Shown here piece by piece: positions 18,333 through 44,996 of a stretch of 64,000 nt of DNA. The DNA lies in assembly GCA_007750655.1 (NCBI GenBank), contig CP036290.1:930001-994000 (forward strand), written 5' to 3'. Made by a program: the position numbers and the translations under genes. This stretch comes from Rohdeia mirabilis. GTDB lineage: Bacteria > Planctomycetota > UBA1135 > GCA-002686595. Numbering within the stretch: position 1 is the first letter of the stretch; the number at the start of each line of letters is the position of its first letter. The notes below the pieces were generated by a model. It ran no database searches, was not told the DNA's origin, and saw only the letters and a program-made list of their open reading frames with translations.

Positions 18333-18676
18333 TCCGGTGACGTGAGCGCGCGCCACTCGGAAGAGCGGCGCGTGCGAGCGAGGAGGGCGGTGGCTCGAAC
18401 GAGCCACCGCCCTCCTCGCGTTGCAGTGCCGTTCACGCGCCCCGAGTCGACCCGCAAGCCGAGGGGACGGGCCGGGTTGCGAACGCCGCACCGCCCTTGG
18501 TGGATCTTGACGAGCACTCTCCGCCCCGGCCGCGTCCACTGCTCGCCGACCCCGTTCCACGGCCTTCCGCCCGATCTCCCCGGACTCTTCGAGGGAGGGG
18601 GGTAGCCTTCGGAACGCTGCGGTCCGTTCCGCCCACGCCCACTCGACGATCTGGCGCCCCGCGCGCCGCCCCGACC
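18333..18676. other. 344-bp intergenic region with terminator and candidate promoter
   Basis: It holds the 20-bp hairpin at 18378-18419 and then a plus-strand TAGCCT at 18603-18608 that could be the -10 of the next lamin-tail gene (leader about 60 bases). No open frame in it looks coding. Confidence 0.4.
18378..18419 (+). terminator. Perfect 20-bp hairpin after the five-LTD gene
   Basis: The arms GCGAGGAGGGCGGTGGCTCG and its exact reverse complement are separated by only AA (18398-18399), 46 bases after the stop codon. The stem is extremely stable and GC-rich. There is no U-tract, so it may act as a 3'-end stabiliser or a non-canonical terminator rather than a classical intrinsic one. Confidence 0.7.
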
Positions 18677-20804: not shown

Positions 20805-20842
20805 CGCGGGGCGCTCCACGACGACACGTGGAGCGCCCCGCG
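20805..20842 (+). terminator. 16-bp hairpin after the three-LTD gene
   Basis: The arms CGCGGGGCGCTCCACG (20805-20820) and its perfect reverse complement (20827-20842) flank the loop ACGACA. It lies 43 bases after the stop and 56 bases before pcp. No U-tract follows, as for the other hairpins in this window. Confidence 0.65.
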
Positions 20843-40432: not shown

Positions 40433-41518
40433 TCAGCGCGCCGCGACGATCGCTTCGAGCTCGCGTCGGCGTCCTTCGATGCGCTCGACGAGTCGGAGCT
40501 GGGCCCGCGCGCGGTCGAGGTTCTGGCCCTCGCGCTCGACGCGGAAGTAGACGTCGCCCGCCAAGTGGTCAGCGAGGAAGCGCACGCCCTGCTGCAGGGT
40601 CATGATGCGAGCGCCCTCGACGAGCAGCGCCCGCTCGAGCGGTTCGATCGTCGCGCCGAATCCGTCCAGGAACCCGTCCACCAGCGCCACGAAGACTTCG
40701 CGGCCCACGTCGATCGCATCGAGGTCGGTCTCGTCCTCCGGGCGCCCCGAAGCCATCGAGCGCACGAGGTCGCCGAAGTCGAACAGGCTGCTGGTGGGCA
40801 TCACCGTGTCGAGGTCGATGACGCACAGACCGCGGCGGGTCGCGTCGTCGAACAGCACGTTCGAGATCTTCGCGTCGTTGTGCGCGATGCGTTCGGGCAG
40901 CACTCCGGCGGCGAGGGCCGAGGTGATCGACCCGGCGCCGGCGCGGCGGGCGAGCGCGAACTCGATCGCGTCCGCGGCGGAGGCCCGGCGTTCGTCCGTC
41001 GCCCGTTCGAGAGCGCTCGCCAGTTGCTCGAAGCGGTGCGGCGTGTCGTGGAAGCGCGGCAGCGACTCGGCCAGTCGCGGCCCGTCGTAGCCAGCCATGT
41101 GCGTGAGGAATCGTCCACAGGCGACGGCCGCTTCGCGCGCGTCGTTCGCGTCCCGCGGTTCGAGCAGGCAGATGCTGTTCTCGATGAACTCGAAGCAACG
41201 CCAGGGCTGTCCGTCGGCGGCGTCGCGCAGCCAGTCGTCACCATTGCGCGTGCGCACCAACCGCAGCGCGCGCCGCTCCTGGTCCGTGCTGCCCGCCAAG
41301 TGTCCCGAGAGGTGATCGGTGACGGCGACGAGGTTGTCCATGACCACCTCGGGGCGCGTGAAGACCGTGGTGTTGACGCGCTGCAGCAGGAAGCGCCGAG
41401 CGCCGCCGGTCGTCGTGACGACGTACGAGCTGTTGATGTGCCCACCGGCCTGGGGGCGGATCGAGTCGACGGGGGCGCCCAGGTCGAAGTGGGCGGCGAT
41501 CGTGGCGGGGGAGGACAC
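40433..41518 (-). CDS. N-acetylhexosamine-1-kinase-like phosphotransferase
   Basis: A 361-residue kinase of the aminoglycoside phosphotransferase/choline kinase fold. The catalytic HND-x-K-x-x-N motif (HNDAKISNVLFD, His213, Asp215) and the metal-binding IDLDTVMP segment (Asp235, Asp237) are present. The N-terminal half has the ATP-binding beta sheet (SIRPQAGGHINSSYVV, FLLQRVN). The IDLDTV(M/K)P(T/G)-x-x-x-x-D(F/I)GD-x-x-R(S)x block is typical of NahK, which phosphorylates the anomeric position of N-acetylgalactosamine or N-acetylglucosamine. The specificity is therefore sugar-like but not proven. The GTG at 41518 begins immediately upstream of the family match. The repeat cluster occupies its upstream region, so its promoter must lie inside or beyond the repeats. 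Confidence 0.75.
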   Translation of the reverse strand: MSSPATIAAHFDLGAPVDSIRPQAGGHINSSYVVTTTGGARRFLLQRVNTTVFTRPEVVMDNLVAVTDHLSGHLAGSTDQERRALRLVRTRNGDDWLRDAADGQPWRCFEFIENSICLLEPRDANDAREAAVACGRFLTHMAGYDGPRLAESLPRFHDTPHRFEQLASALERATDERRASAADAIEFALARRAGAGSITSALAAGVLPERIAHNDAKISNVLFDDATRRGLCVIDLDTVMPTSSLFDFGDLVRSMASGRPEDETDLDAIDVGREVFVALVDGFLDGFGATIEPLERALLVEGARIMTLQQGVRFLADHLAGDVYFRVEREGQNLDRARAQLRLVERIEGRRRELEAIVAAR

Positions 41519-41534: not shown

Positions 41535-41571
41535 TCGGTACGGCGTCAGGCACGCAGCTGCCACCTGCCGC
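41535..41571. repeat. Palindromic repeat, copy 1 (diverged)
   Basis: TCGGTACGGCGTCAGGCAC (41535-41553), GCAGC, then TGCCACCTGCCGC (41559-41571). It is the same element as the two copies of the adjacent inverted repeat but with a different five-base centre. Each copy is an interrupted palindrome (CAGGCAC against GTGCC-ACCTG), like REP or RAYT-associated elements. It lies in the same orientation as copy 2, with 52 bases between their starts. Confidence 0.8.
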
Positions 41572-41575
41572 GCCG

Positions 41576-41700
41576 ACGCCCGTTGATCGGTACGGCGTCA
41601 GGCACACATGTGCCACCTGCCGCCAACGATGCTGCGATTCGCAACGACCAGGGCGGCAGGTGGCACATGTGTGCCTGACGCCGTACCGATCAACGGGCGT
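41576..41700. repeat. Perfect 49-bp inverted repeat made of two palindromic copies
   Basis: The left arm 41576-41624 and right arm 41652-41700 are exact reverse complements over 49 bases, separated by 27 bases (41625-41651). Each arm contains the core TCGGTACGGCGTCAGGCAC, ACATG, TGCCACCTGCCGC and a 10-base outer flank ACGCCCGTTG. The right arm covers the last two sense codons and the stop codon of the radical SAM gene, and the same bases are therefore copied in the left arm. The whole could fold as a very large cruciform or serve as a bidirectional terminator between the two minus-strand genes. No transposase for it is in the window. Confidence 0.85.
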
Positions 41701-43090
41701 AGGCGCGCCGGGCGAACAAGAGCGTCAGGAACGGCAGCATGTTCGTCTTGTTCGGGATCAGACTGAAGATCCGGAACAGGCGCTTCGGCTTCAGGTAGAA
41801 GCGGCGGTAGGCCTTCTTGCGCAGCTTGAAGATCTGCTCCTCGGTCACCGCGCTGAGGTTGATCTGCGACTGGTAGGGCTCGTAGGTGCTCCAGTCGTTC
41901 GGCAGCTCGAAGCCCGCGTTCTCGACCTGCTTGAACAGTTCCGTGCCCTTGAACGGGATGACGCGGAAGAACGCGGCGGTGTGGAACGACGAACTGGCCG
42001 CCCAGTCGATCGTCGCCTCCATCTCCTCCTCGGTCTCGGTCGGGAAGCCCAGCATGAACGCGCCGTGGACCATGACGCCCTGCTTGGCCGTGAAGTCGAC
42101 GATGTGGCGCACCTTGTCGATCTTCAGGTTCTTCTTCATGACCTTCTGGATCCGCGGCACGGCGGACTCCACGGCGATCATGCAGCGGTACATGCCGGCC
42201 TGCTTGAGCAGCACCACGAGCTCCTCGTCGAGGATGTCGCCGCGGAAGCCGTTCGGGAAGGTCAGCTTGATCTTCCAGCCGTTGTCGATGATGCCGCGCG
42301 CGATGGTCTTCGCGCGCTCCGGCTTGAAGTTGAAGATGTCGTCCATGAAGACGAACTCCTTCACGCCGTAGTCCTCGACCAGGAGCCGCATCTCGGCCAG
42401 CACGTTCTCGGCCGAGCGCTCGCGGAACACCTTGCCGTAGGAGTTGTGGCAGTAGGTGCAGCGCCACGGGCAGGCGCGCGACGAGAACATCGTCGCGAAC
42501 TCCTTGTGCGCGTAGATCACGCCGCCACGCGGGACCTTGTGGTACTTCGCGTGGTCGACCAGGTCCCAGGCCGGGAAGGGCAGTTCGTCGAGGTCGCGCG
42601 GGGGCGACCGATCGGGCTCGTGGACGACCTCGCCCTCGGCGTTGCGCCACGAGATGCCTTCGCAGCCCGACCACTCGGTCCGACCGAGCGCCACACCGTC
42701 GAGCACGTCGGCGAAGGTGACCTCGCCCTCGCCGCGCACCACGATGTGGACGTTCTCGTCCTTCATGACGTCGTCGGACGCCACGCTCGGGTGCGGTCCG
42801 CCGCAGACGACCACGGCCTTCGGCAGGCGCTCGCGGACGAGCTTCGCCAGCTCGTGCATGCAGCCCGCCTCGTAGGTCATCGCCGACAGGCCCACGACGT
42901 CGGGCGCGAGGCGTTCGAGTTCCTCCACGCAGCGCTCGGGGGTCCAGTCCTCGACCTTCATGTCGAGGATGTGCATGTCGCCGTGGCCGCGCTCTCGGGC
43001 GACCGCGGCGATCATCATCACGCCCAGCGGGTGGACGTGCGTGAACTGGGTGTACGGGTGATACGTCTGGACGAGTGCGGTGCGGACCAT
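41690..43090 (-). CDS. B12-binding radical SAM protein
   Basis: A 466-residue class B radical SAM enzyme. Residues 1-150 are a cobalamin-binding Rossmann domain (VGLSAMTYEAGCMHELAKLV, VVCGGPHPS). Residues 195-400 are the radical SAM barrel with the 4Fe-4S motif C-x3-C-x2-C (Cys207, Cys211, Cys214 in SSRACPWRCTYCHN), followed by MDDIFNF and the AVES region. The C-terminal part (about 410-466) is basic and hydrophobic. Such enzymes methylate or rearrange unactivated carbons of lipids, phosphonates or peptides; the substrate is unknown. The DxHxxG lower-ligand motif is absent, as is common in this class. Its final codons lie inside the inverted repeat. It is divergent from the 43420 gene. Confidence 0.8.
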   Translation of the reverse strand: MVRTALVQTYHPYTQFTHVHPLGVMMIAAVARERGHGDMHILDMKVEDWTPERCVEELERLAPDVVGLSAMTYEAGCMHELAKLVRERLPKAVVVCGGPHPSVASDDVMKDENVHIVVRGEGEVTFADVLDGVALGRTEWSGCEGISWRNAEGEVVHEPDRSPPRDLDELPFPAWDLVDHAKYHKVPRGGVIYAHKEFATMFSSRACPWRCTYCHNSYGKVFRERSAENVLAEMRLLVEDYGVKEFVFMDDIFNFKPERAKTIARGIIDNGWKIKLTFPNGFRGDILDEELVVLLKQAGMYRCMIAVESAVPRIQKVMKKNLKIDKVRHIVDFTAKQGVMVHGAFMLGFPTETEEEMEATIDWAASSSFHTAAFFRVIPFKGTELFKQVENAGFELPNDWSTYEPYQSQINLSAVTEEQIFKLRKKAYRRFYLKPKRLFRIFSLIPNKTNMLPFLTLLFARRAYAR

Positions 43091-44951: not shown

Positions 44952-44996
44952 CGGGCGGGGCGGGTGTGCGCGAGCGGCGCACACCCGCCCCGTTCG
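44952..44996 (+). terminator. GC-rich hairpin after the radical SAM gene
   Basis: CGGGGCGGGTGTGCGC (44956-44971) pairs perfectly with 44977-44992 over 16 bp around the loop GAGCG. Two further G-U and two G-C pairs extend the stem to 44952 and 44996. It begins 21 bases after the stop. A TTCG-like end follows instead of a U-run. Confidence 0.65.

Follow-up and report, generated by a model that had tools for sequence, protein, structure and literature searches.

Within most copies of a repeat family in the Rohdeia mirabilis genome, the two arms and the host bases adjoining them mirror each other, while the copies differ from one another; this is the new observation reported here. One copy lies in the 64,000-nt stretch of DNA that we analyzed (the window; positions 930,001 to 994,000 of CP036290.1). 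This window element is a REPIN, probably mobile, and one of at least 67 in the genome. A RAYT-type gene lies between two REPINs, most copies are positioned close behind predicted stop codons, and the gene end that is mirrored in the window is conserved among relatives. We consider it somewhat probable that one arm, together with up to about 20 host bases, is rewritten from the opposite arm and flank in inverted orientation. Hairpin-templated rewriting of the arm would then overshoot into host DNA, probably at insertion.

Inverted repeat in the window

The longest perfect inverted repeat at the window locus consists of two 49-nt arms (41576-41624 and 41652-41700) around a 27-nt spacer, which reproduces the exact 49-bp inverted repeat with a 27-bp spacer noted in the original prediction. 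The repeat and an extra arm at 41535-41571 lie between two genes. The parts of the locus, in window coordinates, are as follows.

41535-41571, plus strand: single REP arm of loop type GCAGC (unlike that of the main element), half of a second, truncated REPIN
41576-41588, plus strand: copied flank, in which the radical SAM gene's last codons, stop and TC return inverted; it forms the outer 13 nt of the left 49-nt arm
41589-41623, plus strand: first REP arm of the REPIN, 35 nt, loop type ACAT, from the family alignment
41625-41651, no strand: 27-nt REPIN spacer that separates the perfect arms and has a small hairpin at its centre in the fold
41653-41687, minus strand: second REP arm of the REPIN, identical to the first (family alignment row 971589)
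41688-41700, minus strand: gene-side flank (TC, TGA stop and last radical SAM codons), the source of the copy
41690-43090, minus strand: radical SAM gene whose end is mirrored, 466 aa from this start; an ORF also called by our own gene finder, with homologues of up to 92% identity named radical SAM
40433-41518, minus strand: next same-strand gene, phosphotransferase-like by eye; an ORF also called by our own gene finder

The extra arm is identical to 41587-41623 at 34 of 37 positions. Three element copies had been proposed for this locus; three arms are indeed present, but they make up one and a half elements, since the extra arm is the single arm of a second, truncated element. When 41574-41702 was folded as single-stranded DNA, the energy was -78.4 kcal/mol, compared with -26.8 kcal/mol (sd 2.9) for shuffled sequences. 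An Rfam search of the window gave no match at the gathering level.

Read on the minus strand, the TGA stop of the radical SAM gene is followed by TC, by the element and, on the far side, by the same 13 bases inverted. The stop codon (41690-41692) lies inside the right arm together with the last codons, and the mirrored bases encode AYAR-stop. The coordinates therefore agree with the earlier claim that the right arm includes the end of the gene and that the left arm copies it.

Three perfect GC-rich hairpins were also seen in the window at 18378-18419, 20805-20842 and 44956-44992 (arms of 20, 16 and 16 nt, respectively). They lie 24-45 nt past predicted stops and are probable terminators unrelated to REPINs.

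REPIN family of the genome

The 17-nt core GGTACGGCGTCAGGCAC gave 80 + 79 matches at up to 2 mismatches in the 4.95-Mb genome, compared with 9 + 1 matches for the reversed control. These 159 arms, against 10 for the control, indicate that the core frequency is far above chance, and the genome-wide motif count suggested in the original prediction thus reveals a dispersed family. Exact cores faced each other in pairs at 62 places genome-wide. REPINs were defined by pairing cores with up to 4 mismatches that were 75-95 nt apart, and one double-counted pair was removed. The resulting 67 REPINs are the pairs in the stretches fetched around core matches, and the 159 arms imply roughly 75-80 in total. 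At up to 1 mismatch, the core occurred 147 times in this genome; of 60 other genomes from the family and order, 9 contained it, with 1-5 occurrences each. The rarity of the core in these 60 genomes indicates that the REPIN family is special to this lineage.

Each arm folds as a REP does, with a four-base foot, a GAAA loop and two stems that flank an internal loop of 3 x 3. The 67 pairs and the fold of the window copy agree with the definition of a REPIN as two inverted REPs and a spacer that form a hairpin. As in known REPINs, the many copies lie outside genes, and only 1 of the 67 was wholly intragenic according to our own gene finder. The foot in the fold is GGTA, unlike the unpaired 5' GT[AG]G foot of GTAG-tagged REPs. 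Assignment to CGTC-tagged REPs with a dedicated transposase was dropped, as the fold places CGTC in a stem and the internal loop and not in an unpaired position; excerpts of PMC3733652 describe CGTC-tagged repeats that occur without a dedicated transposase.

Two copies (genome positions 4703580 and 3127696) carry arms of differing loop type, and their flanks are unmatched too. Recombination between two REPINs would give this pattern.

Y1 transposase genes

Two Y1 transposase genes were detected in the genome, both over the Pfam cut-off for PF01797. The protein of the first, P0001, scored 30.2 bits (cut-off 23), and its HYH and YIDNN motifs could be read, so that it has a Y1_Tnp domain with HUH and catalytic tyrosine. 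Its gene sits between the REPINs at 2894829-2894928 and 2895971-2896069, and a putative RAYT gene is thus flanked by the same repeat. The search for a Y1 or RAYT transposase proposed earlier was therefore positive: two Y1 genes, one of them between two complete REPIN copies. The outcome that had been named as speaking against the prediction, a motif confined to this locus together with no RAYT-type gene, is not what was found. Judged by this association, the REPIN may be mobilised by the RAYT-type protein; no empty site was seen among the genomes compared, all of them from other genera.

Against the model for REP-associated tyrosine transposases (NF047646), P0001 gave an E value of 1.3e-12 and 47.8 bits, below the cut-off of 80. 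According to excerpts of PMC6006769, class 3 Y1 proteins of Planctomycetes have a Y----Q motif and a CnGA foot; P0001 has YIDNNVV and the foot is GGTA. No relative emerged when the RAYT protein was used for a genome scan, and a PDB sequence search gave no match. Of the 154 genomes of the order, 50 contained relatives of P0001, this genome counted. Related ends flanked the P0001-type gene on both sides in 4 of 29 relatives' loci (L096, L099, L109 and L113).

The second Y1 gene (3361217-3362281) has a different inverted end, GTACGGTGTCGCACACC / GTACGGAGTCGCACACC, on its flanks. These ends, at about 3361212 and 3362380 in this genome (G000:C1), correspond to about 6213 and 7381 of L061.

Mirrored arms and host flanks

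To compare the arms, we aligned 134 half-arms and calculated the mismatch of each column within a copy and between copies; a variant seen in at most 8 of the 134 was regarded as rare. In the REP (columns 1-35), rare variants occurred in both arms of a copy 16 times and in a single arm 13 times, compared with 5 and 74 times in the spacer (columns 36-52). In 1000 random re-pairings, the both-arm count for the outer columns averaged 0.67 and never exceeded 5. The corresponding mean and maximum for the inner columns were 1.0 and 5, and the observed 5 is a slight excess. The arms were identical in 57 of the 67 copies, compared with 8% of random pairings. The spacer is unmirrored in this genome (ratios of about 1); the exceptions are column 43 (0.21) and 7 copies with full-length symmetry.

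The flanks matched outward from the core over a mean of 8.6 nt (range 2-21), and the maximum in 2000 permutations was 4.3 nt. The within/between mismatch ratio was 0.12 beside the arm, 0.5 at 8-9 nt, 0.66-0.98 at 10-17 nt and 0.86-1.17 past 17 nt; the mirroring thus declines across about 17 host bases. The motifs TGGATTGTC and TGATC recur in the flanks of different copies and supply part of the flank match; being shared between copies, they set the permuted baseline. They may be part of the element or of a target preference.

Four groups of copies with identical bodies were found (12 copies). Their flanks differ past the shared motifs, and 11 of the 12 are mirrored over at least 5 nt. The possibility that the outer flank bases are a fixed part of the element was rejected, since identical-body copies carry differing flanks. 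The innermost 6-9 flank bases, with motifs that recur between copies, may still be a fixed part.

The mirrored length showed no increase as the nearest copy became more distant (rho -0.11, p 0.35). It averaged 9.4 nt for near copies (n = 25) and 7.5 nt for distant copies (n = 21; Mann-Whitney p 0.15). The flat relationship argues for an origin of the mirroring at or close to insertion.

Gene ends

The gene ends used here were predicted by our simple gene finder and are not annotated ends. A predicted gene end lay near 53 of the 67 copies, and the other 14 had none nearby. In 52 of the 67, the REPIN starts 2-18 nt past a predicted stop, whereas only 5.8% of intergenic bases are that close. The mirrored bases include a whole stop codon in 25 of the 53 copies near gene ends, and the mirroring also spans several codons at 110105, at 1102282 and in the window copy.

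The radical SAM gene was compared at 34 loci of relatives; four of these (L211, L212, L213 and L215) were incomplete and left out. The remaining 30 C-termini ended in RAYAR (27), RAYSR (2) or were interrupted (1), and the nine closest homologues whose sequence was read all end in RAYAR. The named relatives are mostly from Planctomycetota, the best being from Engelhardtia mirabilis Pla86. The longest perfect palindrome arm around the stop in the 30 relatives was 8 nt, compared with 13 flank bases here. Since RAYAR ends the gene in 27 of these 30, it is the native ending; the gene side thus served as the source, and the far side holds the copy. The prediction that the duplication had captured a gene end is supported.

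The absence of a comparable palindrome at the gene end of these relatives also bears on a second explanation, in which the element inserts at the tip of a pre-existing hairpin, for example a terminator, so that its flanks are mirrored beforehand. Some REPs are described as inserting at palindromes in excerpts of PMC3733652, and some copies here seem to be nested in the end of another (437103, 791698 and 795497). However, 358,862 non-element bases hold a single TCGA-centred palindrome with arms of at least 8 (arm 9) and none of 12, and no site in the genome matches the joined flank motif GATTGTCGACAATC with 0 or 1 mismatch; at 2 mismatches it has six sites, equal to the control. Perfect hairpins whose arms measure 11 or more numbered nine: five past predicted stops (loops of 2-6), three intragenic and one without a nearby predicted gene. 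None of the nine resembles REPIN flanks, and the five terminator-like hairpins near stops sit 24-45 nt after them. Insertion into hairpins would also leave the mirrored arms unexplained. Ready-made hairpin targets are therefore unsupported by the palindrome counts, the joined-motif search and the gene ends of relatives, and we regard this explanation as improbable.

The stop-proximal positions would be expected if a perfect hairpin were selected as an RNA 3'-end structure, with the arms kept paired by compensatory mutations; in E. coli, many REPs likewise lie 1-20 nt from a gene end, as stated in part of PMC12306157. Such selection as the source of the mirroring is very improbable: unique mirrored stretches of 10-80 nt are beyond the reach of single compensatory changes, the spacer, which is also within the hairpin, is not kept symmetric in this genome, and no terminator-like site was called at the window REPIN locus. 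Selection for the hairpin may add to copying, but long unique mirrored stretches are not easily made by it.

Other genomes

A genome of another genus (G006) contained 5 units of 234 nt. The mirrored flanks of 4 units matched at 37/37, 69/70, 39/43 and 79/81 bases, and the fifth, beside a contig end, had 4 mirrored bases. In the 81-base case (L166), both convergent genes end within the mirrored stretch. Both C-termini resemble those of relatives, so that either side may be the source of the copy there. At L163-L166, one REP-like layer is nested inside another, and each layer is mirrored.

The cultured strain Engelhardtia mirabilis Pla86 (L182, CP036296.1), whose genome is complete, gave 46 + 44 motif matches, compared with 1 + 1 for the control. 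From these 90 matches, only the 32 pairs and 23 solo REPs within fetched loci were sampled. The Pla86 spacers are near-random between copies and mirrored within copies (ratios of 0.05-0.30 in columns 30-46), and the flanks match over a mean of 13.3 nt, compared with 8.2 nt on average and at most 9.5 nt under permutation. Although Pla86 has about 90 REP motifs and no fewer than 32 REPINs, its genome gave no PF01797 match at an E value of 0.001. The flanks of 8 element pairs from four genomes (G019, G032, G080 and G091), whose element ends are related, were unmirrored beyond a short shared consensus.

Fold-back joins at palindromes can be imagined as assembly artefacts, and several G006 motif matches are indeed no more than about 150 bases away from the start of a contig. 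The pattern is nevertheless present in a one-contig genome and in the complete genome of a cultured strain, the mirrored length differs per copy, and unmirrored sequence with predicted genes comes next. An artefact is extremely improbable.

Proposed mechanism

The mirrored pattern calls for copying from arm to arm, beginning near the inner edge and running outward into the host, and fold-back synthesis does so. Two forms of rewriting remain: fold-back synthesis coupled to insertion and plain template switching in replication.

In the first form, the RAYT would move the element as single-stranded DNA. One junction would be made first, and the element would then fold back on itself. The free 3' end could be extended along the already joined arm and then past it into the host flank, and a short match would let the extended end rejoin the far side. 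The outcome would be a symmetric element restored from an asymmetric intermediate, with the inverted flank copy left as a scar. At the window locus, the copy may have rejoined in the GCGCC stretch of the older, truncated REPIN. The insertion-coupled form is favoured by the mirrored length, which is flat with copy distance, and by identical bodies with differing mirrored flanks. In its full version, REPINs would not enter the target as complete symmetric units: once a HUH transposase had joined one end, fold-back of the element would allow a new second arm to be made on the template of the first, with synthesis continuing into the target. We hold this to be somewhat unlikely as a whole.

In the second form, any long palindrome that has been inserted would be subject to ordinary template switching in replication: the nascent strand would fold back, one arm would be copied onto the other, and the copying would overshoot into the flank. 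The RAYT would serve only for insertion. A section of PMC8794818 reports that hairpins are generated and kept up through template switching. Plain template switching is favoured by Pla86, which is mirrored without a detectable Y1 transposase, and by the four negative genomes with related ends, in which insertion alone was seemingly insufficient. The variants confined to one arm, which become commoner toward the inner edge of the arm, also agree with it. However, in copies with a close neighbour the mirroring reaches as far as in old copies, and identical-body copies are mirrored already. Taken as the sole source of the pattern, template switching appears unlikely.

If the insertion-coupled form is true, such transposition would be recognisable by an inverted target duplication, which would also be the missing step that restores REPIN symmetry, and host gene ends would be rewritten by the same act. 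Gene conversion among REPs was reportedly raised in the title of a 1988 paper. In excerpts of the paper by Bertels and Rainey that named REPINs (PMC3116915), an asymmetric excised form is reported, restoring its symmetry is a key issue, and REPIN spread and the return to symmetry are called unresolved. Locus-specific mirrored flanks, which occur also in the complete Pla86 genome, would directly read out the symmetry-restoring step. In our search of the open-access literature, with subscription papers outside it, no description of inverted host flanks at REPINs was found. The pattern also shows gene ends of the host copied inverted next to the gene, and covariation in such a hairpin need not imply selection on RNA.

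Comparison with known systems

The family resembles the REPINs of Pseudomonas fluorescens SBW25, as outlined in the same excerpts of PMC3116915, in having inverted REPs around a spacer, a hairpin, many copies and a RAYT adjoined by REPs. It differs in that arms are mirrored per copy together with host flanks, whereas the excerpts on SBW25 describe compensatory changes inside the hairpin and contain no mention of inverted host flanks. REPtrons and TnpAREP systems, as far as portions of PMC6006769, PMC8266576 and PMC2817692 describe them, share an HUH-Y1 gene between inverted REPs, and their REPs also have two stems around an internal loop and a short 5' foot. In contrast to these, the foot here is GGTA by fold and not GT[AG]G, and the best model, NF047646, is below its cut-off.

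Like the double-foot REPs of PMC6006769 (seen in excerpt), the solo REPs in Pla86 carry a foot at either end, GTAG and CTAC. Unlike the latter, 11 of the 23 Pla86 solos mirror at least 6 unique host bases outside the feet. In quasipalindrome template-switch mutations, as treated in part of PMC8794818, fold-back copying likewise rewrites one arm from the other; the present case differs in being genome-wide in a repeat family and in reaching host gene ends. REPs and Y1 proteins of other kinds have already been reported from the phylum, according to parts of PMC3733652 and PMC6006769. Judged from sequence, the present planctomycete repeats form a REPIN family accompanied by a RAYT-type gene.
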